Source of the DNA: Rubripirellula obstinata | GTDB taxonomy: Bacteria; Planctomycetota; Planctomycetia; Pirellulales; Pirellulaceae | Reading direction: 5' to 3' | Length of the DNA: 64,000 bases | NCBI RefSeq assembly: GCF_001642955.1 | Contig: NZ_LWSK01000011.1 | Coordinates: forward strand, 1-64,000 | Shown here: piece by piece, positions 16,378 to 35,832 of the stretch | Numbering within the stretch: position 1 is the stretch's first letter | Layout: every line of letters begins with the position of its first letter | Translations under genes and position numbers: made by a program | The notes under the pieces: generated by a model | Database searches by the model: none | The model's input: the letters and a program-made list of their open reading frames with translations, nothing else | Told to the model about the DNA's origin: nothing

Positions 16378-16495
16378 GTGACGCCGTAGCCAAACGTGGG
16401 GTTTTGCCGACGGCTTCCCGTTTCGTGGTGTCCAGGTGCATCGGTTGCCGATGCTTCCTATCTCTGGTGAGAGGGACACTACGCAGGAGCGCATT

Positions 16496-18215: not shown

Positions 18216-18635
18216 TCACAATGTCTTCGCCGCGTTTTTGCGTTGGCGGTCGCCGCGAACGGTTTTGACGGCTTCGGTGATTCCCGCGCCGATCTCTAGC
18301 AGTATGTCGGGATCGGTTACGCCGTGATGCTCAAGCGTCGTCGCGACGACAACGCCGATTCGTTCGGCAATCGCTACTAGGTCGTCTAGGTTCAGATAGT
18401 GCGCCGACCGCAACCGCCTTTGCTCTTCGGCTTTTGTTAGGCTTGCGATTGTGCGCATTAACTGGGCAGCTAGCCCGGGGGAATTTTGGTCGATCGCTTG
18501 GTTTGTCATCAATCGACAAAGCGCTATCTCGTGTTCCAAGTTGGTCGGTTCGGTTGTCGACCGTAGCTCTTCGACCCTCTGATTGCTTTCGGCGTTTGCA
18601 AGTTTCCAGGCGTCGCCGCTGTTGATTAGTTGCAT
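18216..18635 (-). CDS. Hypothetical protein, helical
   Basis: A 139-residue, predicted all-alpha, soluble protein. The central LMRTIASLTKAEEQRRLRSA and HYLNLDDLVAIAERIGVVV segments recall the pattern of some phage terminase small-subunit-like proteins, but the resemblance is weak and I make no functional call. It sits in the leftward gene set behind the helicase, 32 bases after the preceding gene. A GC-rich inverted repeat (GACCGGG/CCCGGTC, about 18163-18207) follows its stop and may be a terminator. Confidence 0.65.
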   Translation of the reverse strand: MQLINSGDAWKLANAESNQRVEELRSTTEPTNLEHEIALCRLMTNQAIDQNSPGLAAQLMRTIASLTKAEEQRRLRSAHYLNLDDLVAIAERIGVVVATTLEHHGVTDPDILLEIGAGITEAVKTVRGDRQRKNAAKTL

Positions 18636-18667
18636 CCGATAGCCCTTCGATTAGTCGGTTTGTAAAA

Positions 18668-21108: not shown

Positions 21109-21584
21109 AGATTTCCCCCCGCTACGTCGATGAATTTGGTAAGCCCCGCGTCGACCGATTCGACGACGTGGGCGGCTAGTTGGGTTAGTTGTGGTTTGGG
21201 AACGTCAACGAAGGGATTAAGCCGGATGATTCCGTGTAGGCCATCACCGCTAGTTGATTCGTATAGGTCGATAGCGGGATTCTTTGCCATGCGGTCGCGT
21301 AGCGCCGCTATGGTTGCGGCATCGAAGCCGCCGCCGTGGCTATCGCCGTCGATGTCGATCCCGATCCACTCCGCGCGGCCGGTCACGAAGTTGTAGCCCG
21401 TGCATCCGATGCGCTGGATGTCGTCGCCGTCGTACCACATCTCAGGGCGGGGCGTCTTCGCGTTTGCCCACTGGCATTTGCCGTCGTTGGTACGGATGCA
21501 CGTTTCTAGGTTTTTGTGCCAGTACCGCGTTTTCGGTTCTTGGTCGGCTTCGCAAATTTCGCCGACCCACTCAGTTAGGATCAT
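21090..21584 (-). CDS. AEP-type primase/polymerase domain protein
   Basis: A 164-residue protein; the ATG at 21584 follows a strong ribosome site (GAGGGG). Motifs of the archaeo-eukaryotic primase superfamily are present: DIDGD (acidic metal pair, about residue 77), the STSGDGLHG box (about 110-118), and a third acidic motif in FIDVAGG. The text then reads GGNLWLWH, a string usual just past the catalytic domain of planctomycete and phage primase-helicases, and stops. The helicase begins in the overlapping frame. A G-GGG-GGA heptamer at 21114-21120 is in the correct phase for a -1 shift into the helicase frame. Confidence 0.8.
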   Translation of the reverse strand: MILTEWVGEICEADQEPKTRYWHKNLETCIRTNDGKCQWANAKTPRPEMWYDGDDIQRIGCTGYNFVTGRAEWIGIDIDGDSHGGGFDAATIAALRDRMAKNPAIDLYESTSGDGLHGIIRLNPFVDVPKPQLTQLAAHVVESVDAGLTKFIDVAGGNLWLWHC

Positions 21585-21624
21585 GTTTTTCCCCTCTACA
21601 TATAGAGGTGATCGAGAGGGCGAC

Positions 21625-22437
21625 TTAGGAAACGTAATCCAGGATTTTCCTGAGATTTGTTTCAGCGCGGTTGATCCGGTTTCGGGCTTGGCGTTCCGTG
21701 ACGCCGAGCGTTTGGGCAACCGATCGACCGTACCGCAACGCTTCGACGACGACGCGGTCAGCGTCGTCCAGTTCTTCCAAAGCATCCCAAGGGGTGGCGC
21801 GTTCATTGCCGTCCGGGATGTTTGCGAACGTGTCGCGTTTCTCTTCGTCGGTCGCGTCTAGCGATTCGCACCGAACCGCCGCTAGTTTTTGGTAGTTCCG
21901 GGCAATACCCCGGACGCGGCGAAAGATCCCGTCGGAGTACGCGCCGTGTCCTAGCTCCCACTTCGGAATCGTCCGGAACGATGGTTCGTCGTCCAGGTGT
22001 CCGGGGGCTTCGATAACTAGATCGGGGAAACGGTCGGCAGGGTGAATCCGCTTATCGTCGCGTTTCTTGTTTAGTCGTTCGGCGACATACCCGATGGCAT
22101 CGCCGCTGATGGTGTGAGCCGTCGCCGCTAGTAGATATGGGATGGCTTCGGAATCTCCGGCCCGACGGGCTTCGTCTATCGCTTCGACGAAGTGGGGCAC
22201 CGCTAGTAGACCGGTCGGCTTACGTTCAAAGGTGGTCAGGTTCGGCCAACGGAGCGGGCCGTATAGGCCAGCGCTTACCGCCTCTTTCAAGGCTTCCACG
22301 GGCCGCATGGCGGGCCGCAGGGCTTCGGCGACTATGTCACCCGCGATTATCTCGCGAAGTTGATAGGCGACGGTCAGATATTCGTAGGCATCGTTGACGC
22401 CTTCGTTTTCGGCTAGGTCTAGTTCGTAGTGACGCAC
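21625..22437 (-). CDS. Sigma-70 region 4-like DNA-binding protein
   Basis: A 270-residue protein. The C-terminal 55 residues (ALEELDDADRVVVEALRYGR, then SVAQTLGVTERQARNRINRA) form a sigma region 4-type helix-turn-helix. The rest is helical and does not show a recognisable region 2, so it is more likely a phage-type late regulator or accessory than a full sigma factor. It is the first gene of the leftward set that includes the primase and helicase, and the repeat cluster lies directly upstream. A role in controlling that set is inferred. Confidence 0.65.
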   Translation of the reverse strand: MRHYELDLAENEGVNDAYEYLTVAYQLREIIAGDIVAEALRPAMRPVEALKEAVSAGLYGPLRWPNLTTFERKPTGLLAVPHFVEAIDEARRAGDSEAIPYLLAATAHTISGDAIGYVAERLNKKRDDKRIHPADRFPDLVIEAPGHLDDEPSFRTIPKWELGHGAYSDGIFRRVRGIARNYQKLAAVRCESLDATDEEKRDTFANIPDGNERATPWDALEELDDADRVVVEALRYGRSVAQTLGVTERQARNRINRAETNLRKILDYVS

Positions 22438-22559
22438 GGGCGCGGTTCTCCATTCGCGGAATAGCTTGGTAACTTTCCCGATGGATCGGCGCGCAGCGTT
22501 CCTAGTCTTTTGTCGCTTGATTGTTCATCGGCACAATCGGAGCGATGGGGCAAGCAAAA

Positions 22560-22890
22560 TTTCAAGAAAAACGGGTTAGGCGGGCAGCTTGGCGGGCAGA
22601 GGGGAGCAGAATCGGGCAGCTTTTGACCTGCCCGCCGTCAAAAATACCGTAAAAACCGGGGTCAAACGCCCTTCGGGCGGGCAGGGTGAGCAGTTTTCTA
22701 TAACTTGTGTGGAAAATGAAAAATGAAAAATGAAGAGAGGGGAGAGAAGTAGAGAACCCTAGAAGAGTTGTCGAAACCTGCCCGCCCTGCCCGCCAAAAC
22801 ACGGTTTCACCCCGTAAAACACGGGAAAAACGACGGCGGGCAGCCTTTTTCCTGCCCGATTCTGCCCGCATCCCGCCCGCCGTTGCCATG
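22560..22890. other. CTGCCCGCC repeat cluster, candidate replication origin of element 1
   Basis: A non-coding stretch with about ten copies of CTGCCCGCC or its inverse GGCGGGCAG and close variants, in both orientations, around a purine/AT-rich stretch (GAAAAATGAAAAATGAAGAG, 22714-22733). It sits between the replication gene set and the divergent genes. Iteron-like arrays by a replication module commonly mark origins or control sites. Open frames across it are low-complexity translations of the repeats. Confidence 0.5.
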
Positions 22891-22925
22891 CCCGGCACCA
22901 CGTCGGAACAGCGAAAAACGCCTTG

Positions 22926-23372
22926 TTAGCGCGCGAAGATTTGGTCACACGGCGCGTCAAAATAAGACCAACCGTTAAGATCGAAAAAACCGTCAATAGC
23001 GTCATAAATGGTCGTCCGATCGACGCCGACCGCCGACGCTGCAGCGCGTACCGACGGGAAGCTAACGCGGTCGTCGCCACGAACGGCAATCACGGGCCGC
23101 GTTGCGGGTATCTCGATCATCGACGAAACGCCCGCCAACGCTTTCAATCGCATACGGCGAACCGATCGGCAAGCCGACCGCGCCATTGAAGAGAACGGAA
23201 CGTAGCGCCACGATAGCGGGGGCGGTTCGTCCAGCGAACGTAGCCAAAGGAAAAGCGGGTTGCCGACCATGAACCGCCGATCCCAAGCGCGTATCCACGG
23301 CTTACCGTCGCCGTAGCCGACGAAACGGGGTTCACAAGTTACGGAGTCGATGAATTCAAATACCTGGGACAT
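22926..23372 (-). CDS. GIY-YIG-like / NUMOD1-like small protein
   Basis: A 148-residue protein in two parts. Residues 1-50 (VFEFIDSVTCEPRFVGYG, then PWIRAWDRR) follow the spacing of a degenerate GIY-YIG nuclease core, with VGYG in place of YIG and a following Arg. Residues 105-140 (SFPSVRAAASAVGVDRTTIY, then DGFFDLNGWSY) match NUMOD1, a DNA-binding helix used by homing endonucleases. The catalytic Tyr/Glu positions are not convincing, so it may be a DNA-binding regulator derived from a homing nuclease. It is divergent from the serine recombinase gene. Confidence 0.6.
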   Translation of the reverse strand: MSQVFEFIDSVTCEPRFVGYGDGKPWIRAWDRRFMVGNPLFLWLRSLDEPPPLSWRYVPFSSMARSACRSVRRMRLKALAGVSSMIEIPATRPVIAVRGDDRVSFPSVRAAASAVGVDRTTIYDAIDGFFDLNGWSYFDAPCDQIFAR

Positions 23373-23474
23373 AGCTTGTTAAATTTAGGGTAACGCCCGG
23401 CGCAACCGGACGCGAAGTGAAAAACGCCGTGAAAATCAGCGTCTAAAAAATTGATAGTTGGCGTTTTGAAAGTA

Positions 23475-23489
23475 GGTTTAGAGTAAACC
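23475..23489. promoter_or_regulatory. Inverted repeat upstream of serine recombinase
   Basis: GGTTTA-GAG-TAAACC, a six-base perfect inverted repeat ending 23 bases before the ATG at 23513, in the divergent intergenic region 23373-23512. Position and symmetry suit an operator or a resolvase subsite; not proven. Confidence 0.4.
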
Positions 23490-23512
23490 CTATTCCTAAC
23501 AAGAAACGCACC

Positions 23513-24112
23513 ATGAAAAACAGAAACATCATTGCCGCCTATCTTCGATGCTCTTCCGACGACCAATCGACCGAAGCGCAGCGGGCAGACCTAGAACGCT
23601 ACCTAGAACGCGAAGGATTCGACCTATCCCGCGTTCAATGGTTCATCGACGAAGGGACAACGGGCGACAATCTGGATCGGCCCGCGTTTGAAGAGCTAGA
23701 CCGTCTAATAGCTAACGGCGCGGTCGCTACCGTCGTCGTTTGGAAACTCGATCGTCTAAGCCGTTCGATGATCGACGGGCTTACGACCGTCTCCAGGTGG
23801 CTTGAATCGGGGGTACGGTTCGTTTCGACGACTCAGGCTTTCGACTTTCGCGGGACGATCGGCAAAATGGTTGCCGCGCTATGCTTCGGCTTCGCGGAGA
23901 TTGAACAACAAAGCCGACGTGAACGCCAAGCCGTCGGGATTCAACACGCGAAAGCAAACGGAACCTACAAAGGTCGGGCGAAGGGAGCAACGAAAGCGGG
24001 CGTCGATCCGTCGCGGGCGAAAGAGCTACGGTCAAAGGGTTTGACGTTTAGGGAAATAGCCGCCGCGCTTGGCGTGTCGGCACCCACGGCGCGTTCCTAC
24101 TGTATGGCCTAA
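23513..24112 (+). CDS. Serine recombinase (resolvase/invertase family)
   Basis: A 199-residue protein with the small serine recombinase layout. The nucleophile S14 lies in AYLRCSSDDQSTEAQ, then comes VVVWKLDRLSRSM (conserved arginines, about residues 80-92). The E-helix follows, and a C-terminal helix-turn-helix (TFREIAAALGVSAPTARSY, about 178-196). Such proteins resolve multimers or invert segments. Within an element that may replicate, multimer resolution is the simplest reading. The element also has its tyrosine integrase, so this is a second, separate recombination function. Confidence 0.9.
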   Translation: MKNRNIIAAYLRCSSDDQSTEAQRADLERYLEREGFDLSRVQWFIDEGTTGDNLDRPAFEELDRLIANGAVATVVVWKLDRLSRSMIDGLTTVSRWLESGVRFVSTTQAFDFRGTIGKMVAALCFGFAEIEQQSRRERQAVGIQHAKANGTYKGRAKGATKAGVDPSRAKELRSKGLTFREIAAALGVSAPTARSYCMA

Positions 24113-24488
24113 CGCTTCGCGGGGCTTCATTCCCGCAACACGAACGGCCCGTAGCGTCGAAGCTACGGCCCGCCGTCGCGTATCTCTTTCGCGGTCGCTG
24201 TTCTTTTCGACCGCCGACCGGCCCCCGGCCCGCCGATCATCGGCCCGCTTCCCCTTCGATGCTGGTTCATCGGGCGTCGAATTGACGCCGAAACGACGTT
24301 TTCGGGACCACCGCAAACCCGCCTAGCTTCGTCGGTATCGACCGATCGGCGTTGCCCGATTCATTCCCCGCGTTTCCTCAAACGAAGCGACGCGGGGCCG
24401 GGGGTGGGTCAAAATCGGGCCGCGCAACCGGCATAGTATAGCGCGCGCCTCTATAGCTCTTTTGTCGGTGGTTGCGCCGACGAAAAAC
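24113..24488. other. Non-coding GC-rich stretch
   Basis: No supported gene. Several short inverted repeats are present (for example CGCCGATCATCGGC near 24231). It lies between the ends of two convergent genes and may hold their terminators. Confidence 0.4.
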
Positions 24489-24881
24489 CTACTGCCGCGT
24501 CAGTATCGGTTCGCGTAGATCGAAAAGCGTATTGCACGCTTGGACGATCAGCGCCGCCGCGTACCCTTTGCTGGTTACCGTTTCGGCAAGCGGCCGACCG
24601 AAAGCGCCGTTCGTAAGTGTTCCTTCGTCGTTCCAAAACACTTGGCGTAGAAGCCGATTCGATTCAATCACTTGCAGTTCACCGCAAAGCGAACCAGCCG
24701 AACCGCGTAACCGATAGACGCAGCGGAGCAACCGACCGCCGATCGAGATAACCAGGGTGTCGGCGTGTCGCTTGACACGGAACGCGCGTAACCCATGAAC
24801 CGCGTTGATGACGTTTTTGAAAAGTTGGTCGGCTATGTTTTGATGCTTTGCGGCTACCGCCGCTACTTTGGTTTCCTTCAT
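24489..24881 (-). CDS. Hypothetical protein
   Basis: A 130-residue alpha/beta protein starting MKETKVAAVAAKHQNIADQL. Alternating beta-like segments (TLVISIGGRLLRCVYRL, about residues 42-58, and GSLCGELQVIES) suggest a small compact domain; there is no membrane segment. It is divergent from the restriction nuclease gene with 182 bases between, which hold an inverted repeat. A regulatory or accessory role for the R-M locus is possible but unsupported by motif. Confidence 0.6.
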   Translation of the reverse strand: MKETKVAAVAAKHQNIADQLFKNVINAVHGLRAFRVKRHADTLVISIGGRLLRCVYRLRGSAGSLCGELQVIESNRLLRQVFWNDEGTLTNGAFGRPLAETVTSKGYAAALIVQACNTLFDLREPILTRQ

Positions 24882-24972
24882 GGATTCCCTTTGGGTTGTG
24901 GGTCAAGCGTTGACCCGTATCGAGAAACCGACGGACGTTTTACGCACCCCGCCGATCATGGCTATTGATTGA

Positions 24973-24992
24973 GCGTTTTACGATTAAAACGC
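24973..24992. promoter_or_regulatory. Inverted repeat in R-M upstream region
   Basis: GCGTTTTA-N4-TAAAACGC, an eight-base perfect inverted repeat 71 bases before the nuclease ATG at 25064. A candidate operator for the divergent genes. Confidence 0.4.
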
Positions 24993-25063
24993 CGTTTTGA
25001 TCTATCGCCGTCGTCCCGTTCCCGTGTAACGGAAGTTTTTGTTTCTAGCACGACGGAACGACA

Positions 25064-26218
25064 ATGAAATATATTGACAGCGGAAGTCAGCAACCCGGTA
25101 GTTACCTCGTCGATTTCCTAGACGAAAATTTGCTTGCCGATTCGCGGGGCGTCTGGTTTCAATTCGGATTCTTTTCAACGGGTGCCCTTTCGCCGTATGA
25201 AAGCGAACTAGCAAAACTTCGATCGTCCGACGCCAAGATATGTGCAGTGGTTGGATCAAACGGACGGTCGCTAGGCGAGCAAGATCTTGCCTACCTACTC
25301 GGCCAGGTCGAGCCGTGCGGTACTCGGCAGCTTCGGGTTGTGGCGTTCAACAACGCTCAGTTTCACGCCAAGACGATCGTAATTCAACGCGAGGACGATT
25401 CGTTCGCTGCCTATGTCGGATCGTCAAATTTCACCCAAGGCGGAGTCGGTCGAAATTCGGAAGCGGGCATAATTCTTGACACGGTGGAAAATGACCCTAA
25501 AGCCGTCATCGATGACATAGTTAGCTCGACCCAATACTGGGTGGAGGAGGATACGAAGTACAGTGTCGCCATCGAATCTAGCGACGACATAGCCGCTCTA
25601 ATTGAACGAAAGGTGATTGCAAGAAATAGCGAGCGAAGCAAAGAGCAAGAGCGAAGCGAAGAGCGAAGCGAAAACGCAGAAGGGCTCTCGGGGCGTCGAC
25701 AAAAGCGCTCAAAAAACGCCGCGTCGCAAAAGGGCAATCGAAGTACACGACGCCCAGTTGAGTCACCTCCAGTAATTAGCGGGAAAGTCGTTCATACTTG
25801 GTATAAGCAGATGCGATCATCGGACGCCCAGCGTGTCGGCGCAAACACGAACCCAACGGGAAAGCTTCGGCTAGCCCAGGCTGGACATGCTATCAATGCT
25901 TCGACTTACTTTCGCCAAACACTCTTTGGCGACGCAGAATGGAGCAAGCTAACCAGAAGAGGCAAGACCTACGAAATTGCTAGAATTCCGTTTCAAGTAA
26001 GCTTTCGCGGAGAAGAATTGGGACGCCTTGAGTTGATGGTGGATCACGCCCCGCACCGGATCGCATCACAAGCGAACATCCCAACGGTTCTGGCTTGGGG
26101 GCCGGTGTTAGGTAATCGACTTAGAAATAACGACTGCGTCGGGGACTGGGTGGTCATTCAGCAAACGGATAGCGGCGAACACCTTCTAGAGATTACTCAA
26201 AGCGAACCGATGCTATGA
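25064..26218 (+). CDS. PLD-superfamily restriction endonuclease (NgoFVII/BfiI-like)
   Basis: A 384-residue protein. The N-terminal domain (about 1-165) has the single PLD active site used by BfiI-type nucleases: H101-x-K103, then GSSN (G119-N122) and E133. The dimer of such a domain cuts DNA without metal. A low-complexity, charged linker (about residues 187-225, built from repeated GAGCGAAGC DNA) joins it to a C-terminal domain (about 240-380). That domain reads VHTWYKQMRSSDAQ and STYFRQTLFGDAEW, resembling the B3-like recognition domain of this family. The convergent methylase gene overlaps by six bases. The recognition sequence cannot be predicted. BfiI/NgoFVII relatives with metal-independent cleavage are the reference. 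Confidence 0.82.
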   Translation: MKYIDSGSQQPGSYLVDFLDENLLADSRGVWFQFGFFSTGALSPYESELAKLRSSDAKICAVVGSNGRSLGEQDLAYLLGQVEPCGTRQLRVVAFNNAQFHAKTIVIQREDDSFAAYVGSSNFTQGGVGRNSEAGIILDTVENDPKAVIDDIVSSTQYWVEEDTKYSVAIESSDDIAALIERKVIARNSERSKEQERSEERSENAEGLSGRRQKRSKNAASQKGNRSTRRPVESPPVISGKVVHTWYKQMRSSDAQRVGANTNPTGKLRLAQAGHAINASTYFRQTLFGDAEWSKLTRRGKTYEIARIPFQVSFRGEELGRLELMVDHAPHRIASQANIPTVLAWGPVLGNRLRNNDCVGDWVVIQQTDSGEHLLEITQSEPML

Positions 26219-27844
26219 ACTAGCGTTCCACCGTCGATCCCGCAGCAGCCTACGCGCAGACTCCATATCAGGCATTAGCTCTTTTAGTTCCGAATAATTT
26301 GAAGCTAGCAGTTTGTCAGTAGCGCTAATTAGCAGGTCTTCTGTATCCCGCTGGCCGCCAGCGGAACGACACACTTTGTCAAGTGCGGAAAACTCATGTT
26401 TCAGTTGAACAACCGGAATGAGAATCCGCTTTATTTCAGACGGAATCAGTTCCAGCACGCCGCCTCCATAGCTTCGGCCCTCTAGCTCTGTTGAAAGTAT
26501 TGTCAGAGAGTTATGGAACCCTGCAATCAAGTCTTTTTCGCTGCGAGCGAAAATTGGTTTGATACTGCCTCGGTACACCGTATCGGTCGTCATCGCTTTT
26601 GTGGAATTCAGCAGCAAACGATGGAACTGATGCGCTCGCTTCGTTAGCATTAACTTGCCAGCGCGAACATCATGCAGACGATACCAAGGGTTTCTAATTC
26701 GACACTTGTATCGTTCGTGAATTTTCTCGGATTCCGCAGCCTCAATATATTCGCGGCTTTTCGCAAAACTCATGGGGTCCGGTTTGTTCGCTGCGAAGTT
26801 CAGTAAGTACGCTCGCTGCCCAGCGTCTACCGCACGACGATGATCCTTTGCTAGAAACGCCAGTCCTTCACAGTCGGCGGTTCTTGCAAGTAGCGGAATG
26901 GCCCACGCTTCTAACTCAAAATTTTCTACAGTGTCGCCAGTCACCGTGAAAAACTTGTTCGCTCCAGTCACGTTTGAAACGCTAATGTCAGCGACTGTTC
27001 CAAGTGTCGCTATACCCGGCAACTCGCTTGCAGCGTTGTAACTTGTCAACAGCGCTGGCGACAAAAGGTACTTCGTCCAGTTGTTTTTCGAGTCGCTAAC
27101 AAAATGATTCCAGCTCCCTGAATCTCGCGTCCCACGATCGGAAAACTCGACTTCGCAACCTGATTTAATTCTGCGTGTTTTCTTTCCTGCAAGAACAATA
27201 ATCCCTTGAAGGATGTTTTCAAACGTCCCCGGTGGATAAAAATCGACACTGAGAGAATCGCAATGACGAATTAGCTCAGACCGCACCAAGCCCGCTGATT
27301 TGATCGTCAACAGTTCACTTGGAAGGACGAAGCAAAAGCTTCCATCCGGTTTGAGAAGATTAAGACTGCCAACAACGAAAGGAATCCAAAGATTTGAAAC
27401 CCCATCGAATGAAAGGCCAGCGCTCGCCAATAATTCGTCGGCGGCAACCCGGTCAGACGGTTTTACGAACTGATAGCGAACGAAAGGTGGGTTGCCAACG
27501 ATACAGTCGAACAGACATTCGGATGAATTCGCCCAGTCAAAAAAACTGCAATTATGAATACTCCCCGAAGCGTTGATGTCGCTAAGTGCGGTTTTCGCTT
27601 TCGCCGCTTCCCCTTCATTCAATTCGATGCCGGTTACTCGGACGTTCTCAAAATCGCTTCGATCAATCGCCCTTCCGACTGCCCGAACAAACGCACCATC
27701 GCCAGCGGAGGGTTCGAGCAAGTCTATTTTCGATCGGTCACCGAGAAGCCGTCGCACTCGCTTCAAACAATCGTCGGCCAAATTGTCCGGCGTATAGAAA
27801 CCGCCTCTAAGCTTGTCGGCTGATAGCTCGTGCGCAAATTTCAT
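26213..27844 (-). CDS. N6-adenine DNA methyltransferase (Eco57I-like class)
   Basis: About 543 residues with ATG at 27844, where the family opening KLRGGFYTPDNLAD follows; an in-frame ATG at 27898 would add 18 residues. Motif I is LEPSAGDGAFV (SAM binding), motif IV is GNPPFVRY (catalytic NPPF), followed by a long target-recognition half. The NPPF form marks adenine-N6 or cytosine-N4 amino methylases; Eco57I-like adenine methylases fit best. It would protect host DNA from the convergent PLD nuclease. The pairing of a BfiI-like nuclease with one large amino methylase inside an element is the notable point. Confidence 0.87.
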   Translation of the reverse strand: MKFAHELSADKLRGGFYTPDNLADDCLKRVRRLLGDRSKIDLLEPSAGDGAFVRAVGRAIDRSDFENVRVTGIELNEGEAAKAKTALSDINASGSIHNCSFFDWANSSECLFDCIVGNPPFVRYQFVKPSDRVAADELLASAGLSFDGVSNLWIPFVVGSLNLLKPDGSFCFVLPSELLTIKSAGLVRSELIRHCDSLSVDFYPPGTFENILQGIIVLAGKKTRRIKSGCEVEFSDRGTRDSGSWNHFVSDSKNNWTKYLLSPALLTSYNAASELPGIATLGTVADISVSNVTGANKFFTVTGDTVENFELEAWAIPLLARTADCEGLAFLAKDHRRAVDAGQRAYLLNFAANKPDPMSFAKSREYIEAAESEKIHERYKCRIRNPWYRLHDVRAGKLMLTKRAHQFHRLLLNSTKAMTTDTVYRGSIKPIFARSEKDLIAGFHNSLTILSTELEGRSYGGGVLELIPSEIKRILIPVVQLKHEFSALDKVCRSAGGQRDTEDLLISATDKLLASNYSELKELMPDMESARRLLRDRRWNASS

Positions 27845-27898
27845 TTGGCGTTTCTCATCGCAATTCAGGGGCGGTCGACCGTAACCTAAGGCACCCAT

Positions 27899-28092
27899 TT
27901 GAGTTGGCCGTTGAAGCGGCTAATTGGCTCCATCCGCGATTGACGCAGTCATCATCAAAAGCTTTCGGGTAGCCGCTCCCAGCTTCTCTCAGCTTAGGCA
28001 AAGAACGCTGAAATGGGTAGCCGCCAAAAGCTTTGGGGTTCGTGGTGTTACCGACGACCTAACAGGCTTGGCGTTACCGGTCACTTTCGCAA
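27899..28092. other. Short non-coding interval
   Basis: Contains direct repeats around AAAGCTTT(C/G)GG and GGTAGCCGC (27957-27975 and 28016-28034). No gene is supported. Confidence 0.35.
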
Positions 28093-28296
28093 CTAGAACC
28101 AGCCGCTAGCCGCCGCTTCGATGATTGCCGCGTCGGTGAAAGCTACGTCCAGGGCGGGGAAGTCGTCGGCCCGTTTCCAGTTCACGCCGTCGATGCTTAC
28201 CGGGGTCGACGGTTCGATAAAACCCGACCGGGCCGCGTCAATTAGCTCATCGGCGGTCGCGGTCAAAATTCTGTCTTTCAATCGGACGTAGTGCAT
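28093..28296 (-). CDS. Small GYF_2-like domain protein
   Basis: A 67-residue protein with ATG at 28296. The sequence MHYVRLKDRILTATADELID, then GFIEPSTPVSIDGVNWKRADDF, follows the pattern of the bacterial GYF_2 domain, a short adaptor fold binding peptides. The reading frame extends further upstream without family resemblance, so I prefer the inner ATG. Role in the element unknown. Confidence 0.5.
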   Translation of the reverse strand: MHYVRLKDRILTATADELIDAARSGFIEPSTPVSIDGVNWKRADDFPALDVAFTDAAIIEAAASGWF

Positions 28297-28372
28297 ACCG
28301 CTAGCATAGCTCAGAAAAGCCGGGGAGCGACCGAAGCCGTGCAACGCGGCCCGACACCGGGGGCAATGATTT

Positions 28373-28582
28373 CTAGCGAGCCTTGCGGGGACAAAGAAAG
28401 GACAACGCCCGCTTAATTCCGTGAACCGTAACATCGTCGCGGTAACGGTAAGTGAGCGTGAAGTAAGCACCGCCACGGCGGGCAATCGGGATTCCGTTTT
28501 GGGTGTCGACGTTGACACCGGGGCAGCACTCTAGGCCGTAGCGGTCGAGTAGTCCGTAGAATCGTTTAGCTAGTTGTTTCAT
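28373..28582 (-). CDS. Small hypothetical protein
   Basis: A 69-residue basic protein (ATG 28582; an in-frame start at 28618 is possible). It has a helical N-terminus (KQLAKRFYGLLDRYGLE) and a beta-like core with repeated tyrosines (AYFTLTYRYRDD). No family recognised. It is the gene closest to the right end of element 1. Confidence 0.45.
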   Translation of the reverse strand: MKQLAKRFYGLLDRYGLECCPGVNVDTQNGIPIARRGGAYFTLTYRYRDDVTVHGIKRALSFLCPRKAR

Positions 28583-28607
28583 TGTTGGTCGGTCTGTTTT
28601 CGGGTCG

Positions 28608-28707
28608 AAAATTTGCACCGGTTTTGCACCGGTTCCCGCAAAGGGGCTAAAGCGTAAAGCACCGGAAAACCGCGTTCAAACGGCGCGAAGGTTGCCGGTG
28701 CAAATTT
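28608..28707. promoter_or_regulatory. Candidate arm-type integrase sites (element 1, right)
   Basis: GCACCGGTTTT-GCACCGGTT is a direct repeat at 28615-28634. TTTGCACCGG (28612-28621) and its inverse CCGGTGCAAA (28695-28704) face each other. The same half-site forms the palindrome at 16353-16377 near the left core. Confidence 0.45.
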
Positions 28708-28745
28708 GAGTGATTAGGATGGTTTGAGCTTGGAAAAAGCGGAGA

Positions 28746-30476
28746 TTAAGCGTTCCCCACGGGTCGACTGTCGATCCGGAGGTTGCGGGTTCGAGTCCCG
28801 TCCGCGTCGCTTCTCCAAACCTCCGAAAACATTGTGTTTTCTGGGGTTTTTTCGTGTTTTGATCGAATCTCTGGCACTCGTCGCAAAGCTCCCAAATTGC
28901 CAGCTTGTGACACGTTTTGACATGCTTTGTCAAATTCTGGTGCAACAGTTGGTGCAACAGTTCGCGGTGATGGTTGCACCGAACCAGTCCGGTGGTCGTG
29001 GGTTCCCGTCGCCCTCAGCGTTGCGGTTGTCGCCTCGGTCGGGATCAGCGTTGGCAACGCGTCGACTGCGCCCGATACGTCCAGCAAGCGTGGGTCCGTG
29101 TAGACGTTCATCGTCAAGTCGATGCGACTGTGACGCATCGCTGCTTGGGCCGTCCGTGGCGTAACACCGGCGCACGACATCAATGTTCCGAATGTGGTCC
29201 GCAGCGCGTGGACATCGAGACTACGGCCTCGGTTGTCGATTTTCGGGATTCCTGCCGTCTCCAAGTCCAAGTCGAGAATCTTCACGAGTCCGTCAGCGAC
29301 GTAGAACACCGATCGATTCGCATCGGTTCCCTTGGTCGCTGGCAACTTCAACACGTCACCGCTTTGGTCTCGACATTCTTCATCGGCAATCCATGAACGC
29401 AGGTCGTCAGCCAAGTCGGCCCGCAGCGGGATCATACTGCCGTCGCGGTTCTTTTCATCCTTGGCGGCCAAGTCGATCGCAGGCGGGCCGTCGTCAAGTA
29501 TCAATTGTGCTTGAGTGATCGACCGTAACTCGTTGCAACGAAGTCCCGTCAGCACCATCGTTTTGTACACGAGCATCCGTTCGCGTCCGCGACGCTCCAG
29601 GGTGGCGATGAAGGTCGGGTTCTTCTGCAATCGCTCTCGAGCACGATCGCAACACTCTTCGAGTGTCTCCAACGTCAGCGGCGCGTAGGTCCAGTGCGCT
29701 CGTTTGCCTTCCGTCTTCTCGGTGGCAACGGTTTGGCGTCCGTAGTCCGCCAAAGGTCGGTCACGCGCGACACGTAGCAGCCGCCCAAGCTCGGCTTCCG
29801 TCATCGCGCGACGTGTCTTTCGTCGATCAGACTTTTCGTCCGCTTTGGCAACACGAGCCAAAGGATTCGACGCCAACCGCTCGACTTCGATGCACCAATT
29901 GAGCAAACCCCGAATCGCTTGCAGATAACTATTCCGCGTCCGCGCAGCCATGTTCTCCTTCTGCCGATCCACGAGCCATCGTTCCAGCGGTTCGCGGCGA
30001 ACATCTTGCAGCAACACAAAACCGCACTCGTCCACTAGCCGGTTGATTTTGTTTTTGGTGCCAGTGGTGTAGTCCGCGGTCCGTCCTGCCGATTGCAACG
30101 ACATCACGTAGTCCGCCAAGTGATCCGTCAGCAGCGTGGAGCGGTGATCGGCAATCGCCGCCTCTTCCCGCGTGATGACGTTGCCCCGAATCAGCTCTTC
30201 GCGTCGAACCAGGTCCGCCAGCACCGACCGCGCCGCCTGTTCATCACGGCACCCCGTCGGGACTTCGCACACGAGACCACGAGCGTCTCGATACTTCGCT
30301 AGAAAGGTTCCCGTTTTGACTTCGATTCGTTCGGAACCATCCTTGCCGATCGTCACCTTTGCTGTGCGTGACTTCCCCTTCACGCGATAGCGAACAAACG
30401 CAACGCCTTTTTTGGTGAAGCGTTCCGCATCGGCAGGCATCGCCCGAGTGACTTTCTTTTGAAAGACCGTCGCCAT
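28746..30476 (-). CDS. int: Tyrosine recombinase/integrase of element 2, reading through the attachment core
   Basis: A 576-residue integrase (ATG 30476; an in-frame start at 30503 is possible). It has an arm-binding N-terminal domain, a core-binding domain (about 115-225) and a catalytic domain. LTGLRCNELRSI carries the first Arg, HALRTTFGTL the H-x-x-R-like box, MRHSRIDLTMNVYTD the last His and the nucleophile Tyr. After the catalytic Tyr comes a tail of about 110 residues that includes TVAPTVAP, then TRTRNLRIDSR, encoded by the complementary strand of the 47-base core (28766-28812). The last five residues and stop lie in element 1 DNA. In a circular element the same frame would continue into 34450-34728, giving about 662 residues. 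The integrase family is certain; the switching tail is inference. Confidence 0.93.
   Translation of the reverse strand: MATVFQKKVTRAMPADAERFTKKGVAFVRYRVKGKSRTAKVTIGKDGSERIEVKTGTFLAKYRDARGLVCEVPTGCRDEQAARSVLADLVRREELIRGNVITREEAAIADHRSTLLTDHLADYVMSLQSAGRTADYTTGTKNKINRLVDECGFVLLQDVRREPLERWLVDRQKENMAARTRNSYLQAIRGLLNWCIEVERLASNPLARVAKADEKSDRRKTRRAMTEAELGRLLRVARDRPLADYGRQTVATEKTEGKRAHWTYAPLTLETLEECCDRARERLQKNPTFIATLERRGRERMLVYKTMVLTGLRCNELRSITQAQLILDDGPPAIDLAAKDEKNRDGSMIPLRADLADDLRSWIADEECRDQSGDVLKLPATKGTDANRSVFYVADGLVKILDLDLETAGIPKIDNRGRSLDVHALRTTFGTLMSCAGVTPRTAQAAMRHSRIDLTMNVYTDPRLLDVSGAVDALPTLIPTEATTATLRATGTHDHRTGSVQPSPRTVAPTVAPEFDKACQNVSQAGNLGALRRVPEIRSKHEKTPENTMFSEVWRSDADGTRTRNLRIDSRPVGNA
28766..28812 (+). 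repeat. Attachment core, middle copy
   Basis: Identical over 47 bases to the cores in tRNA-Asp and at 34728. It is the boundary between elements 1 and 2. It is a tRNA 3' fragment only, and on the complementary strand it codes the integrase tail. Confidence 0.92.
28825..28850 (+). terminator. Terminator-like hairpin after middle core
   Basis: GAAAACA-TTG-TGTTTTC followed within a few bases by TTTTTT. It would terminate tRNA-Asp if element 2 lay directly behind the tRNA. On the other strand it lies inside the integrase tail coding sequence. Confidence 0.55.
28938..28962. repeat. Paired 12-bp direct repeat, left end of element 2
   Basis: TGGTGCAACAGT twice in tandem plus T. The identical 25 bases recur at 34624-34648 near the other end. 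It is a candidate arm-type integrase binding site. On the minus strand both copies encode TVAPTVAP. Confidence 0.6.
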
Positions 30477-30640
30477 TATTCCAACTCCCAACAGTTGACC
30501 CATGCGAAAGAAACGTCACGGCAGGCTGGCATGGGAACCAGCTCTTCGGGCTGCAGACCCTAGCCGTGGCGATTGTCAAGTTACCGCATGACGTGAATGC
30601 ACGCCAAGCGGATTGTGGTTTTCTCGTTCACGCACTGCGA

Positions 30641-31222
30641 CTATGAAATTCTCTTGATGACCGCTCTGGGGATCGCTGGTCGCGACGATGATGACCTGTC
30701 ACGAATGGCACCGGGCGGATTGCGGCGGTCCTCTGAGCACCTAATCAGCCTTGGTCGAGCGTTGTTTTGACCGAATCCGGCTAACGGTCGGCAGATTTCG
30801 CCATCAACTCCGGACTTCGCGAATTTGCAGTAGTCACGGACAAACTCTTGCTTGATCCACTTTTCATCGTCCGTGTTGCAACGATGACAGAATCGCTCCC
30901 AACTGCCGGACATGCAGCGAAGAACGGCGTTGATTAACGGGTCTTCAAAGTCGATGTGTTTGACGTACCCCATGGGGATCGTCTTCTGCACGTCGCTCCA
31001 CGCATCGAGCGCCCGCGCGTCAGCGGCGGGGAAACCAGCCAGCTCCCGCAGCTCCACCACGAGCGGCAAGTGGTCTAGCTCCGTCACAGCTCGACCGACT
31101 GCCACGCCCAATTGCTCGGGAGTGAACCCGGAAAGGCCAAGCCGATAACAGCGGACCATGATCGGCGTTGCTTCACGCGAGAAGTAGTCGAACAACATCT
31201 CAATTGCTTGCTCAATCTTCAC
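30641..31222 (-). CDS. Phage-type replication accessory (helicase-loader-like) protein
   Basis: A 193-residue protein. I chose the GTG at 31222, which overlaps the upstream gene by 11 bases (that gene ends at 31212) and follows GAGG. The N-terminal helical part (KIEQAIEMLFDYFSREATPI, then LGVAVGRAVTELDHLPLVVE) resembles phage replication P / helicase-loader-like proteins that follow an initiator gene. The C-terminal third is basic. The resemblance is weak; position behind the initiator is the main support. Confidence 0.55.
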   Translation of the reverse strand: MKIEQAIEMLFDYFSREATPIMVRCYRLGLSGFTPEQLGVAVGRAVTELDHLPLVVELRELAGFPAADARALDAWSDVQKTIPMGYVKHIDFEDPLINAVLRCMSGSWERFCHRCNTDDEKWIKQEFVRDYCKFAKSGVDGEICRPLAGFGQNNARPRLIRCSEDRRNPPGAIRDRSSSSRPAIPRAVIKRIS

Positions 31223-32015
31223 TGAACACCTCCGCGATGGCACGTCGAGTGTTATCGGTGCGAATTTCAGCAAACGTGCTCGGTCGTGATCCTCTCGACT
31301 TCGGCTCTTTCTCATTGCGTTTCTCCCAAGTGACGACGGCGGCTTTCCAATCGACGATCGGATTGCCTCCCGATTTCCAACCGCGTGATTCATACCATGC
31401 GTGGAACGTCTCTGGGTCAACGCTACTGCCGCGCACGCGACAATGCTCCTGAACTTCGATCAGTGTCGGACGTGACGCTGCGCGAGATTTCCGTGGCTTG
31501 GGCGGCGGCTTCGATGGCACACAAACAGATTCCGCGCACGCGGTCCCTGTTCCTTTCCCTGTTCCGCTTCCCTTCCCTGTTCCTTTCCTTTCCAGTGGTG
31601 AGTCCTCAGTGAGTCCTCCATGAGTGCTCACTGATTCCTCAGTGAGTCCTCCATGAGTGTTCACGGAACACTCATCAACTGCGTCAAACGCATCGCGGAG
31701 TTTTGAATCGCACGGGCGGTTGATTCGCTGATGGTCGCTGAACTTGCAAACCTTGCCGATTCGCTTCCCATTCAGATCTTCGCGAACTTCGATGTAGCCG
31801 ATCGCTGCCAGCGCGGCGAGTGAGTCCGTCACTTTGCTGGTCTCGTGATCGAACGGGAAACATGCGGCGCGAACCAACGCGACGTTGGCTTGAAAGTAGC
31901 CTTCGTCATCGCAATGGTTCAGCAGTGCGATTGCTAACAGTCGGGAGTGTTCAGCGAGCGCCGCGAGTTCTTGGTTTTGCCAAAACTCGGGCTTGATGGT
32001 TCGGATACGCGCCAT
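31212..32015 (-). CDS. Phage-type replication initiator-like winged-helix protein
   Basis: A 267-residue protein; the ATG at 32015 has AGGAGG upstream. The N-terminus MARIRTIKPEFW, then SRLLAIALLNHCDDEGYF, is the hallmark of phage replication organiser proteins with a winged-helix domain (about 1-90). A linker of repeats follows: STHGGLTEESVSTHGGLTED and a Gly/Thr/Lys-rich stretch. The C-terminal domain (THAWYE-type segment around 185-230) resembles DnaT/primosome-like ends. It probably binds the element's origin. It overlaps the next gene in the set. Confidence 0.7.
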   Translation of the reverse strand: MARIRTIKPEFWQNQELAALAEHSRLLAIALLNHCDDEGYFQANVALVRAACFPFDHETSKVTDSLAALAAIGYIEVREDLNGKRIGKVCKFSDHQRINRPCDSKLRDAFDAVDECSVNTHGGLTEESVSTHGGLTEDSPLERKGTGKGSGTGKGTGTACAESVCVPSKPPPKPRKSRAASRPTLIEVQEHCRVRGSSVDPETFHAWYESRGWKSGGNPIVDWKAAVVTWEKRNEKEPKSRGSRPSTFAEIRTDNTRRAIAEVFSED

Positions 32016-32017
32016 GG

Positions 32018-32419
32018 TCACGCCTCCTCGTCGTCGGAGTCAGCCAACAGCACCGACACGATGACGGCAGCGGGCTTGCCATACGCAGTCAAGCGGGTCC
32101 GCTTGGTTTCCCGTACCCGCCCCATCGTCAACAGAGCCAGCACGGGACCGCAGACCGACGTGTAAGGCACTCCGCAAAGCTGATGCAGTTCAAACCGCGT
32201 CGCCCCCGCAGCTCCCTGTCCGGCCACTTCAAGCTCGATACGGTCGCGAAGTGACGGTCCCTTGGCGTTCGACGCTGCGCAAGCGATCGCTCGTGTGGCG
32301 TGGGAGTGCTTGCCGTGGTCGAGCAAATCCAGTTGCTTTGGTCGCGATTGCTCGCGACTCTCGTTTGACCTATCCTGACGAATGCAACTTACGTCGTGGG
32401 TCGTGTGGTGATTCGTCAT
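32018..32419 (-). CDS. Winged-helix-like hypothetical protein
   Basis: A 133-residue protein; its ATG overlaps the stop of the AlpA-like gene (ATGA at 32416-32419). The C-terminal half (LRDRIELEVAGQGAAGATRF, then CGVPYTSVCGPVLALLTMGR) follows a winged-helix pattern: the family of domains that switch nutrition or mobile-element genes. The N-terminal 55 residues are polar and disordered. A regulator or replication accessory is plausible; not proven. Confidence 0.55.
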   Translation of the reverse strand: MTNHHTTHDVSCIRQDRSNESREQSRPKQLDLLDHGKHSHATRAIACAASNAKGPSLRDRIELEVAGQGAAGATRFELHQLCGVPYTSVCGPVLALLTMGRVRETKRTRLTAYGKPAAVIVSVLLADSDDEEA

Positions 32420-32649
32420 CGCACGGCCCCCGTTCGTTTTGGCGTCGGCCGGAAGCGTGGATTGCCTGCCGCGTCCCATTCGTCGAGAGTCTCGATCGAC
32501 CAGCGGACCATTCCGCCAATCCGAATCGGCGGCGGCATCAACCCCGAGTCGGCAAGCCGGTATACCGATCGTGACGAACACGAGTACCGCAAACCAACTT
32601 GCGGCGCGGTCAGATACCGCGTCAATGATTGTGTGAGTGGCTCACTCAT
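32416..32649 (-). CDS. AlpA/excisionase-like helix-turn-helix protein
   Basis: A 77-residue protein starting at ATG 32649 (an in-frame ATG at 32682 is possible). It shows the MerR/AlpA-type single-domain pattern: YLTAPQVGLRYSCSSRSVYR, then GLMPPPIRIGGMVRWSIETL. AlpA-like proteins control excision or integrase expression of elements. It overlaps both neighbours (stop of the upstream gene at 32642; start of the next gene at 32419), so they share a transcript. Confidence 0.75.
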   Translation of the reverse strand: MSEPLTQSLTRYLTAPQVGLRYSCSSRSVYRLADSGLMPPPIRIGGMVRWSIETLDEWDAAGNPRFRPTPKRTGAVR

Positions 32650-32830
32650 CGTTGCTGGCCTCCCCATCTTTGTGGATGGCATTGGGCTGGCAACGCGATC
32701 GTTCCAACTTCAACAGCAAACGGTGCAACGAGCGGAGAACCCGGTTCTCTTCAGCGTTGCGGTAGATTCGGTGGGATACGTCGGCAGACGATGGCAGTGG
32801 AAGGTCACCGACCTGAGGCGACTGTTTCAT
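32642..32830 (-). CDS. Small hypothetical protein
   Basis: A 62-residue, basic, helical protein (ATG 32830). The middle NAEENRVLRSLHRLLLKLER is amphipathic. Its stop overlaps the start of the AlpA-like gene. No family recognised; the overlap arrangement is the main evidence that it is real. Confidence 0.45.
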   Translation of the reverse strand: MKQSPQVGDLPLPSSADVSHRIYRNAEENRVLRSLHRLLLKLERSRCQPNAIHKDGEASNDE

Positions 32831-32898
32831 AACTCGGCTCCTATGCGAGAGGATGCACAACCATCCCGCGTTGGTCCTGAGCCGTAAACGCAAAGCCG

Positions 32899-33894
32899 TC
32901 AGACTTTGGGTTTGGGTTTACGCTTTGGGTTTACCACTTTCTTCGCTTCCGACTTCCTTCGATTGTTCGGATTACCTTTCTTGCTCTCTGGGTACGTTTT
33001 TCCGGGCAAGTTGCTGTAGCGAACCAATCGCTCTCGCAACCGCACTTCCGTCGTGATCGCCGGCCAACCTTTCGCGGGTCCGATCAATGCGAGTTCGGCG
33101 ATTAACTCGGGCCATGTTTTTCTTGGCTTCGTGTTGTAAATCCACTCGTCCAAATCCAAGTCTTGCCAACTGTCGTACTGTGGCGGCAAGTCACCAACTC
33201 GCCCGCTTCGCGCCTCGTCGTGTTCCGTCTCCGGCGAATCGCCCAGCAGTTGCTTCAAACAGTTCGCTTCCCTCACAAACGAATCGAACGGAAAGTCCTG
33301 TCTAGCTTGTGCCCTGTTGAACAGTCCGTAACCGTGCGTCAACGCCGTCCAGAGTTCGGGCGGAGTTTGGTCCGCAGCTTGTTTTAGTTGTGACCATGGA
33401 TAGCAGAGCGAACAAGGCGAGTCGTCGGAGTAATCGACATGATGAAAGTCCTCTCTCGGGTCACGTTCTCGGATGTACGGAAAGAGTCCCTTTAAGCAAG
33501 TGCTCCATGATTGCCGCCACGTTTCGATGTAGTCGTTTAGCCAAGCCAACGCGAAGTGGTGATAGTTTGCGTGGTGCGTCGGAGAAGCGATGCCGAATTG
33601 CGTCGATAACCTTGTGATCGACGGATGGAACTGAACGACGTTGCGGCTGATTTCTTCAACGACGCTTTCGATCCGCGACAGACCATCAGCATGATGGATG
33701 CAAAGCCATCGTAGAACGTCTGATTTCGTGGCGTCCTTTGGCACTCCATCGCTACCGGCCGCACGAAAACCAGCATCCCAGTAAATGTGGGAAGGGCTTA
33801 GCACCGACTCCTCCCAATACTGCGCTGATCGAATCGCGAACAGCAACGACTGAACGCTTTCGCTCAGTTCGAGACATGACACACTTTCAGCCAT
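32899..33894 (-). CDS. Protein of unknown function, candidate cargo of element 2
   Basis: A 331-residue soluble protein (ATG 33894; another ATG directly before it). It is rich in Trp, His and Tyr, with an acidic middle and a basic C-terminal tail of about 25 Lys/Arg/Pro residues (VNPKRKPKPKV). A CxxC-like SPCSLCYPW lies near residue 170. Predicted mostly alpha-helical; no signal or membrane segment. I recognise no family. It is first in the leftward set and too large to be a typical regulator, so it could be a cargo or defence gene. Confidence 0.7.
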   Translation of the reverse strand: MAESVSCLELSESVQSLLFAIRSAQYWEESVLSPSHIYWDAGFRAAGSDGVPKDATKSDVLRWLCIHHADGLSRIESVVEEISRNVVQFHPSITRLSTQFGIASPTHHANYHHFALAWLNDYIETWRQSWSTCLKGLFPYIRERDPREDFHHVDYSDDSPCSLCYPWSQLKQAADQTPPELWTALTHGYGLFNRAQARQDFPFDSFVREANCLKQLLGDSPETEHDEARSGRVGDLPPQYDSWQDLDLDEWIYNTKPRKTWPELIAELALIGPAKGWPAITTEVRLRERLVRYSNLPGKTYPESKKGNPNNRRKSEAKKVVNPKRKPKPKV

Positions 33895-33897
33895 CAA

Positions 33898-34255
33898 CGA
33901 CGTTCCTTTGAGTCGAATAGGGCCGGATCATCCGGCGCGATGCAAGGAACAGCACCGCAGGCCGGGTGAACCGACGGCGGTAATGAACCGCCTGCCCGTC
34001 GAAAGTCGCGGATACCAGCCGCAACTGTTGAATGCCGGGTGGTAACTCCGACGCAGGTAGTTTGCCGAATCACAACCGCGACGCCAACCCGAACTTGGTA
34101 AGGTTTTGGGCGAGCGATTCGACGAGCGTTTCCGTGGAAACGCTCGGGTTAGAATGTGGTCGCAGTGCGAAAGAAAGTCTGTCTTTTACGGGGTTAGTTC
34201 CCGTAGGGGCCGAGAATCGAAACGCTCCAGGAAGGACCCGGAAAACCAATTGGCG
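33898..34255. other. Non-coding region with stacked short hairpins
   Basis: Divergent region upstream of the 331-residue gene and of the zinc-ribbon gene. Several stems follow each other: GCCGG-ATCAT-CCGGC (about 33930-33940), GCGGT-AATGA-ACCGC within CGAC/GTCG, and GCGG-ATACCA-GCCGC. It could be a structured leader or origin. No known riboswitch motif is recognised. Confidence 0.35.
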
Positions 34256-34453
34256 ATGAAATTCAAGCGATTGACCCCCGATCGTCGCCCAACGTGTCAT
34301 GCCTGTGGCGTCGCGATGGTCGCGCGGTCGACGCAAGGGGCGGTCACGTACTGCTACTGCCCGCAGTGCGGTCGAGGTCGCAAGGTCGCCCGCGAACCCA
34401 TAGGTGTTCCCCCAGCACGGCCGCCGTCACCCAGCGATCAGCCATCAATCTAA
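34256..34453 (+). CDS. Small zinc-ribbon protein
   Basis: A 65-residue protein from ATG 34256 (the frame is open further upstream from 34106). Two CxxC knuckles, CHACG and CYCPQCG, 17 residues apart, form a zinc ribbon; the ends are basic and Pro-rich. Such small ribbons occur in phages and elements as DNA- or protein-binding adaptors. It converges on the displaced integrase tail with four bases of overlap. Confidence 0.6.
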   Translation: MKFKRLTPDRRPTCHACGVAMVARSTQGAVTYCYCPQCGRGRKVAREPIGVPPARPPSPSDQPSI

Positions 34454-34728
34454 CGGGCCTCGTCCGGCATCGCGTCAATCTTCGCCTGTGCCTGCAACCC
34501 ACGGGCGACGTTAAGCAGGGTTTCGAGCACTTCGGGCGCGAGTGTTTCGGCAATCTCATTCAGCTTCGCCAGAGGACCGAGCGTTGCCAATCGCGTCGTT
34601 TCGCGACACTGATTGTCAAAAGTTGGTGCAACAGTTGGTGCAACAGTTGTTTTGGCGTCATCGCTCAAAGTCGTTTCGCTCGGCAATTCATGGGGTAAAA
34701 CGTCATCGGCTCGGGTGGGTGCCGAGCG
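34450..34728 (-). CDS. Displaced in-frame C-terminal segment of the element 2 integrase
   Basis: A 92-codon open segment ending at 34450 and entering from the core at 34728. Its phase relative to the core is the same as that of the integrase gene at 28746-30476, so joining the element ends makes one continuous frame without a stop. It carries a second TVAPTVAP-FD sequence, as in the integrase tail itself (TVAPTVAPEFD), then a helical end (NEIAETLAPEVLETLLNVAR). In the integrated state it has no proper start (only a TTG at 34686). It may be the functional tail of the circular form, or a relic from duplication of an integrase 3' end. Confidence 0.55.
   Translation of the reverse strand, partial: RSAPTRADDVLPHELPSETTLSDDAKTTVAPTVAPTFDNQCRETTRLATLGPLAKLNEIAETLAPEVLETLLNVARGLQAQAKIDAMPDEAR
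34624..34648. repeat. Paired 12-bp direct repeat, right end of element 2
   Basis: Identical to 28938-28962 in the same orientation (TGGTGCAACAGT twice plus T), 79 bases before the third core. Candidate arm-type integrase site. Confidence 0.6.
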
Positions 34729-34774
34729 ACTGTCGATCCGGAGGTTGCGGGTTCGAGTCCCGTCCGCGTCGCTT
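34728..34774 (+). repeat. Attachment core, right copy
   Basis: The third identical 47-base core. It ends element 2; chromosomal DNA resumes at 34775. Confidence 0.92.
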
Positions 34775-34808: not shown

Positions 34809-34900
34809 GTGCATTGATTCTCCCACTGATGAAAGGGTGAACATGTTGGAGCTGGGGGCAGCCGCGGTGAGCGTTTGGTAGTTGGAACGATCCGAAGTGG

Positions 34901-35021
34901 CCGTAGCATGGGCCGTAGCATGGGCCGTAGCATGGGCCGTAGCATGGGCCGTAGCATGGGCCCCTGGCCCGTGGTCATATTTTTCCGAAAATCCCAACCA
35001 CGGGCCGGGGGCCCATGCTAC
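34901..35021. repeat. REP array (tandem 12-bp units and inverted REP) left of RAYT
   Basis: Five exact tandem copies of CCGTAGCATGGG (34901-34960) lead into CCCTGGCCCGTGG. A full inverted REP (CCACGGGCC-GGGGGCCCATG-CTAC) follows at 34998-35021. The pair makes a BIME-like unit. Confidence 0.85.
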
Positions 35022-35129
35022 GCTTATCCACTTATGAACAGGCTCTACATTTTTGCGATGGCTTGGACCAACCGGGGTGACGAAGGGGTTGGAGGTCTTT
35101 CTCGCGTGATAAAACACAGCGACCTTTCA

Positions 35130-35153
35130 CCACGGGCCGGGGGCCCATGCTAC
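35130..35153. repeat. REP unit immediately upstream of RAYT
   Basis: A 24-base REP identical to 34998-35021, four bases before the transposase ATG at 35158. Confidence 0.88.
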
Positions 35154-35157
35154 TAGC

Positions 35158-35832
35158 ATGACGCTTAATCTGGATGCTCCTCCTGGCTTTCGCGGGCTTG
35201 ATCCAGACAAGCCGTTAAAAATGTACACACGCAACCTTCCTCATTGGCGTCAGGATGGTGCGACTTACTTTGTTACGTTTAACTTGGCCGACGCACTCCC
35301 CGGGCCGAAGAAGGAGGAATTGAAATCGATGCGTCGAGAATGGGAGCATCGAAATCCTCCGCCTCGGGACGAGGCCACTTGGACCCAGTATGCAAAGTCA
35401 GTTTTTGTGAAGGTAGAGAAATGGATGGATGCGGGTTACGGGCAATGCTGGTTTCGCCGCGCGTGTTATGCCAAAGAATTGTGGCGATCGATCCTGCACT
35501 ACCACACGCAACGGTATCAAGTTGGTTGCTTTACAATCATGGGCAACCATTGTCATTTGGTCATGCGTCCGTTCGCTCAGATCGAGCTTGAACAAGAGGT
35601 TGGATCCATCAAAAGTGTTACCGCTCGATTCATTGGCAAGCGTGAACAACGCAAAGGTCCGTTATGGCAACAGGAAGCGTACGACCGCATCATTAGAGAC
35701 GACGAGCATTTGTACCGAGTCGTGCAGTACATCGGCGCAAACCCAGGTCGCGCCGGCATTCCACCAAACGAATGGCACCGTTGGATCAACCCAGAATGGA
35801 AAGCAGCAGGCTGGGATTTTAACGATCAATAG
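35158..35832 (+). CDS. REP-associated tyrosine transposase (RAYT, Y1_Tnp)
   Basis: A 224-residue IS200-like single-strand transposase. The HUH motif is in FTIMGNHCHLVMRP (about residues 122-135) and the catalytic tyrosine region is QEAYDRIIRDDEHLYRVVQY (about 176-195), followed by NPGRAGI. RAYTs bind and cut REP hairpins and are thought to have spread them. Here the gene sits inside a REP cluster: one REP touches its start and two or more lie just beyond its stop, so this RAYT and the TAGCATGGGCC REP family belong together. It is intact. Confidence 0.93.
   Translation: MTLNLDAPPGFRGLDPDKPLKMYTRNLPHWRQDGATYFVTFNLADALPGPKKEELKSMRREWEHRNPPPRDEATWTQYAKSVFVKVEKWMDAGYGQCWFRRACYAKELWRSILHYHTQRYQVGCFTIMGNHCHLVMRPFAQIELEQEVGSIKSVTARFIGKREQRKGPLWQQEAYDRIIRDDEHLYRVVQYIGANPGRAGIPPNEWHRWINPEWKAAGWDFNDQ

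Follow-up and report, generated by a model that had tools for sequence, protein, structure and literature searches.

In mycobacteriophages with integration-dependent immunity, the phage attachment site (attP) lies within a coding gene, and integration alters the C terminus of the protein encoded there. Published descriptions treat an attP inside the element's own integrase gene as a rarity among bacteria, and integrases that disrupt their own genes occur, according to a recent review, in archaea only. Archaeal integrases of the SSV type, also called suicidal, carry the attachment site in the integrase gene, which is split upon integration (PMC8371274), and the authors of Islander note that a few integrases, those of Mx8 and SSV, extend across attP (PMC4383910). 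In the Myxococcus phage Mx8, attP lies in the coding sequence of the integrase (IntP; AF396866), and integration swaps 112 C-terminal residues for 13 (PMC4701971); the integrated integrase is reported to be less active (PMC4701971) or altered in specificity (PMC6070905). The serine integrases of streptococcal integrative and conjugative elements (ICEs) in rumA also differ in their C termini between the excised and integrated states (PMC4701971). Here, we describe a tyrosine integrase of this kind in the planctomycete Rubripirellula obstinata. Its gene belongs to element 2, an element of ~6 kb in a 64,000-nucleotide stretch of the 6.58-Mb genome (contig NZ_LWSK01000011.1, positions 1 to 64,000; hereafter, the window), and it is nearly certain that the circular form of this element would encode a longer integrase than the integrated form.

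Two elements are stacked in tandem at the tRNA-Asp gene of the window. Element 2, the farther from the tRNA gene, is bounded by two attachment (att) cores, and the features that define the arrangement are as follows.

16204 to 16278, plus strand: tRNA-Asp gene (anticodon GTC), the integration target; read in antisense, TTA at 16223–16225 in its D-arm is the TAA at which the integrase of a singly inserted element would stop.
28746 to 30503, minus strand: tyrosine integrase of element 2, integrated form, 585 amino acids (576 from an inner ATG at 30476).
28765 to 28812, no strand assigned: integrase-end att core of 48 bp, antisense to the 3′ part of tRNA-Asp and read in the integrase frame as approximately SDADGTRTRNLRIDSR.
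34727 to 34774, no strand assigned: far-end att core of element 2, matching the first at all 48 bp.
34450 to 34726, minus strand: integrase tail in its displaced position, made up of TAG and the 92 codons before it in the joined frame; the circle alone would bring it back together with the integrase.
34453 to 34632, minus strand: last 60 residues of the tail, with the helical module described below.

A preliminary description of the window had held that the integrase frame runs through a 47-base core and stops at 28746, and that joining the two element ends yields one frame with 92 residues after the core. Each of these points is borne out. The open reading frame (ORF) at 28746–30503 passes through the att core, continues for 6 residues into element 1 and ends in TAA at 28746–28748, and 47 bp of the core are common to the element and the tRNA-Asp gene. 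When the ends are joined, no stop interrupts the frame, which spans 672 amino acids (662 from the inner ATG, as opposed to 576) and has its sole stop, TAG, at 34450–34452; the predicted circular form would carry 92 residues after the core and the integrated form about 6. Had element 2 inserted at tRNA-Asp on its own, its frame would read ...SDADGTRTRNLRIDSPGL (...RNLRIDSPGL*) and end, as had also been foreseen, at the TAA in the D-arm. The protein is a tyrosine recombinase: its catalytic domain occupies residues ~311–471, it matches PF00589 (E = 1.7e-10) and the PHROG integrase family (1e-29), and the R, K, H, R, H and Y columns are invariant in 67 relatives.

The closest precedent is Mx8, rather than the SSV integrases or mycobacteriophage repressors to which the preliminary description had turned. 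As in Mx8, the element 2 attP core would lie in the int coding frame, with a long tail predicted for the circle and a short one for the integrated state. The likeness does not extend to sequence: the element 2 integrase is very distant from that of Mx8 (BLASTP E = 0.059; hhalign probability 24%), and the two are not close kin by these measures. Moreover, whereas Mx8 is a single phage case, element 2 has a planctomycete family around it, in which a helical module recurs, the tRNAs are of at least 15 types and the elements are small and carry a replication gene. In SSV-type integrases, the split parts the N-terminal from the catalytic C-terminal half and leaves two inactive fragments, while here the catalytic protein remains whole and a terminal module is lost; we therefore rejected membership of the SSV type, as the entire catalytic domain lies on one side of the core. 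An integration-dependent immunity switch was likewise rejected: the protein altered in mycobacteriophages is a repressor, but the core of element 2 lies in the integrase gene. The rumA ICEs differ in that they use serine recombinases and target a protein gene instead of a tRNA gene.

How widespread is this arrangement? Homologous integrases, together with their upstream DNA, were taken from public planctomycete genomes; an integrase from Pirellula is 59% identical to that of element 2. Pairs were formed by finding a repeat that links the integrase 3′ end with an upstream site, these being the two att cores, and the DNA was then translated in the integrase frame across the far core. This procedure reconstructed 27 distinct elements with many tRNA targets, the window's included; one other pair, L182, has a repeat that is not a tRNA core and was therefore discarded. 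In 24 of the 27, again counting the window's, the integrase-frame tail of the circle holds a short leucine-rich helical module near its end, such as SLPIKADSFSAALAMIASLPLSDAEKADAVRRLMAEQ (L053), LGQFATLEELAETLRGVLSAEDCRRLAVLLHQAEGDA (L082) and LHQWLHQIAESDERTVAAVLVDAVAELFGRDGTERLLAELEHQAEA (L140), or LAKIVQAWPTLPDAIKRAMLAMVESLHSEHGN (L176) in a distant subfamily. What had been proposed for the window, that the circular and integrated states encode different integrase C termini, is consequently predicted for 23 other reconstructed elements as well. In a single element (L172), the module lies in a frame other than that of the integrase, through either a natural frameshift or a sequencing error. 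Antisense tRNA genes of at least 15 types are overlapped by 94 of the 136 integrase ORFs whose 3′ end could be read, so that the integrated C termini of these 94 are antisense tRNA translations. Searches of plasmid records returned distant integrases only, and three viral contigs had no paired ends. One of the 24, a second and distantly related element (L164; G000:C246) whose integrase tail is split in the same manner, PPVSYLFPSG...SAELLALWADLEPEQRARVLEVATAEFLAD, lies in the window's own genome. Seven related integrases (L088, L089, L093 and L147–L150), several of them from Phycisphaerae, end soon after the catalytic domain without a tRNA overlap and form a natural tail-less comparison group.

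Homologues in which core and tail are contiguous, which the preliminary description had recommended seeking, do exist. On two contigs (L066/L123 and L158), integrase, tRNA core and tail run in one unbroken frame, and each of these genomes has the tRNA gene on another contig. A terminal-overlap test for circular contigs was negative, including for L123. In L158 (G137:C516), the tail is followed by ~84 kb of island-like genes, among them large helicase-like ORFs.

Several lines of evidence indicate that the displaced tails are coding, a signature that had also been suggested as a check. In 23 of the 27 elements, the frame that stays open longest beyond the core is that of the integrase (p = 4e-8). 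Its median is 67 open codons, as compared with 16.5 for the other two frames; the corresponding values for the window's element are 91 versus 7 and 19. The integrase frame is also the only one of the six frames of the window's tail that is free of stops, and its codon usage is near that of the integrase body. The window's tail lacks a close homologue, so other groups served to measure selection. In the two that could be aligned, the ratio of nonsynonymous to synonymous differences (pN/pS) for the integrase frame is 0.23 in one and 0.45 in the other, whereas the other frames give 1.05–2.75, and differences at codon positions 1, 2 and 3 number 61/22/100 and 79/52/135, a third-position excess; the underlying pairwise comparisons are not mutually independent. 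The module motif was first spotted by eye. Profiles from which the tested element and its close relatives had been left out were run against the 295–816 six-frame fragments of each element; the true tail came out on top in 10 of 24 elements and in the top 9% in all 24. These three tests agree, and they show that protein-level selection has preserved the displaced part.

Structure prediction places the module in relation to the rest of the protein. For L066, AlphaFold2 run with 66 relatives gave a confident three-domain tyrosine recombinase, in which residues 483–565, the region encoded by attP, are disordered and are followed by helices at 570–580, 583–593 and 596–610. The last 60 residues of the window's tail are also predicted to form three helices (6–17, 20–30 and 33–54), with a predicted local distance difference test score of 84–92 at the module core.

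Between the catalytic domain and the module, the coding sequence contains what look like arm-type integrase sites, recognizable as paired TGCACC units.

28938 to 28961, plus strand: tandem 12-bp repeat TGGTGCAACAGT, two copies, which the integrase frame translates as VAPTVAP; probably an arm-type site, on the integrase side of attP.
34625 to 34642, plus strand: matching pair of GGTGCA units 12 bp apart, which the frame of the tail translates as VAPTVAP; probably an arm-type site, on the tail side of attP.

Such pairs, with units 12 bp apart, are found in eight elements, including the window's, and lie ~170–215 bp before the core end and, past it, usually at a distance of 58–72 bp (the window has 84 and 96). 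Their translation, set by the frame of each element, is VAPTVAP, LHQWLHQ or CTNGCT, whereas the helical module keeps to the integrase frame. Constraint on attP DNA alone therefore cannot explain the module.

We propose that the int gene is whole in the circle, where it would encode the catalytic domain, a long disordered linker specified by the arm sites and tRNA core of attP, and the three-helix C-terminal module. Integration at the 3′ end of tRNA-Asp would cut int at the core, leaving the module at the far end of the element without an integrase start and an integrase that ends in or just past the tRNA; excision would restore the full protein. We put the probability that this explanation as a whole is correct, with attP in int and the module lost on integration and regained on excision, at about 0.8. 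If both forms of the integrase are produced, as we infer, the tail-bearing form may be the one built for integration. We lean slightly towards the further idea that tail loss alters the integrated enzyme and acts as an integration-state switch. Loss of the module might quiet or redirect the integrated enzyme until excision, which could be aided by the first of two other element 2 proteins.

32416 to 32682, minus strand: helix-turn-helix protein (HTH_17, AlpA-like), candidate excisionase of element 2 (PF12728, 4e-6; phrog_66 "excisionase and transcriptional regulator", 7.2e-7).
31212 to 32021, minus strand: replication-initiation-like protein of element 2 (phrog_1408, 5.3e-28).

By analogy, the reports on Mx8 support this direction of change, as its integrated form is reported to be less active; they also agree with the suggestion in the preliminary description that one state might favour integration and the other quiescence. 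Since relatives of the same build occur across the phylum, these observations suggest that a switch between the free state and the inserted one is built into these elements and is old. Somewhat better than even, in our judgment, is the broader proposal of a large, old family of tyrosine integrases with a dedicated three-helix module that is removed at each integration and restored at each excision. In many small planctomycete elements with at least 15 tRNA-target specificities, the module would serve as a self-resetting record of the integration state, and tandem insertion could exchange modules.

It is also conceivable that attP merely happens to lie near the end of int, that the tail is an ordinary 3′ end and that both forms are equivalent, so that its loss has no regulatory meaning. 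An attP that overlaps the 3′ end of int is known elsewhere, and the linker and tail come after a complete catalytic domain, so the truncated integrase could be active. However, the module is conserved and under purifying selection, and the full-length form therefore does something; the layout is also kept over deep divergence and many tRNA targets, and the shortened form of Mx8 is reported to be less active. We consider an incidental overlap unlikely, though it is the strongest competitor to the switch.

A less probable alternative, which we regard as improbable, is that the displaced tail is translated by itself in the integrated state, for example from the TTG at 34686, and either complements the shortened integrase in trans or serves as a small regulatory protein. 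A 78-codon ORF with this TTG start does cover the tail, and selection on the tail could operate in either state. Yet no conserved start was found, in analyses that did not include a search aimed at one, and across the core the module stays in phase with the integrase, which would be unnecessary for a separate gene. Very improbable is the idea that the segment after the core is kept as an attP arm with the open frame as a by-product: arm-type repeats are present in the tail-coding segment, but their frames vary while the module's does not, and the module lies beyond the arms with a synonymous excess and a coding-type codon-position pattern, such that conservation as DNA only is contradicted by this pattern and the in-frame pN/pS.

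Several observations weigh against our proposal of a module lost on integration and regained on excision. The circle and both forms of the protein are predictions from sequence. The two uninterrupted copies, with their attP-like junctions, may be tandem junctions or decayed islands and not circles. The module is absent from two of the 27 pairs (L183 and L118), and the tails are short and diverse across subfamilies, with a mean column identity of 19%. The tail fold has no match in the PDB, and no significant Pfam family was found. For the window's tail, tblastn detected no close homologue in the loci or across 241 family genomes, with matches only to its own repeats and to tRNA cores; it ranks first of the 306 six-frame fragments of its element against a profile built without that element, with a weak score of 4.6 bits.

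While the principle is known from Mx8, a family that spans a phylum and has a conserved detachable module seems to be new; no planctomycete case was found in the literature that we searched, which lay mostly outside subscription journals. The occurrence of the same principle over much of a planctomycete integrase family turns the Mx8 anecdote into a system in which the reason for an integrase to change its own C terminus upon integration can be probed both comparatively and at the bench. It also means that the annotated integrases of integrated elements end in antisense tRNA translation without their real C termini, so that gene models and any use of such enzymes are affected.

The surroundings of element 2 contain several other features. 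Element 1 (16279–28764), the other tRNA-Asp element of the tandem, has an integrase different from that of element 2, encoded at 16436–17740 and directed away from the tRNA. It also encodes a DUF5906 protein (19303–21108), a serine resolvase (23513–24112) and, in a large ORF at 26213–27898, a protein that resembles a DNA methyltransferase, as judged by eye only. ARAGORN reports an odd tRNA with a 4-base anticodon at 28712–28810; this is the copy of the core at the junction of elements 1 and 2 and not a gene. Just outside element 2, at 34890–35160, are short direct repeats of gtagcatgggcc and copies of cacgggccgggggcccatgct.
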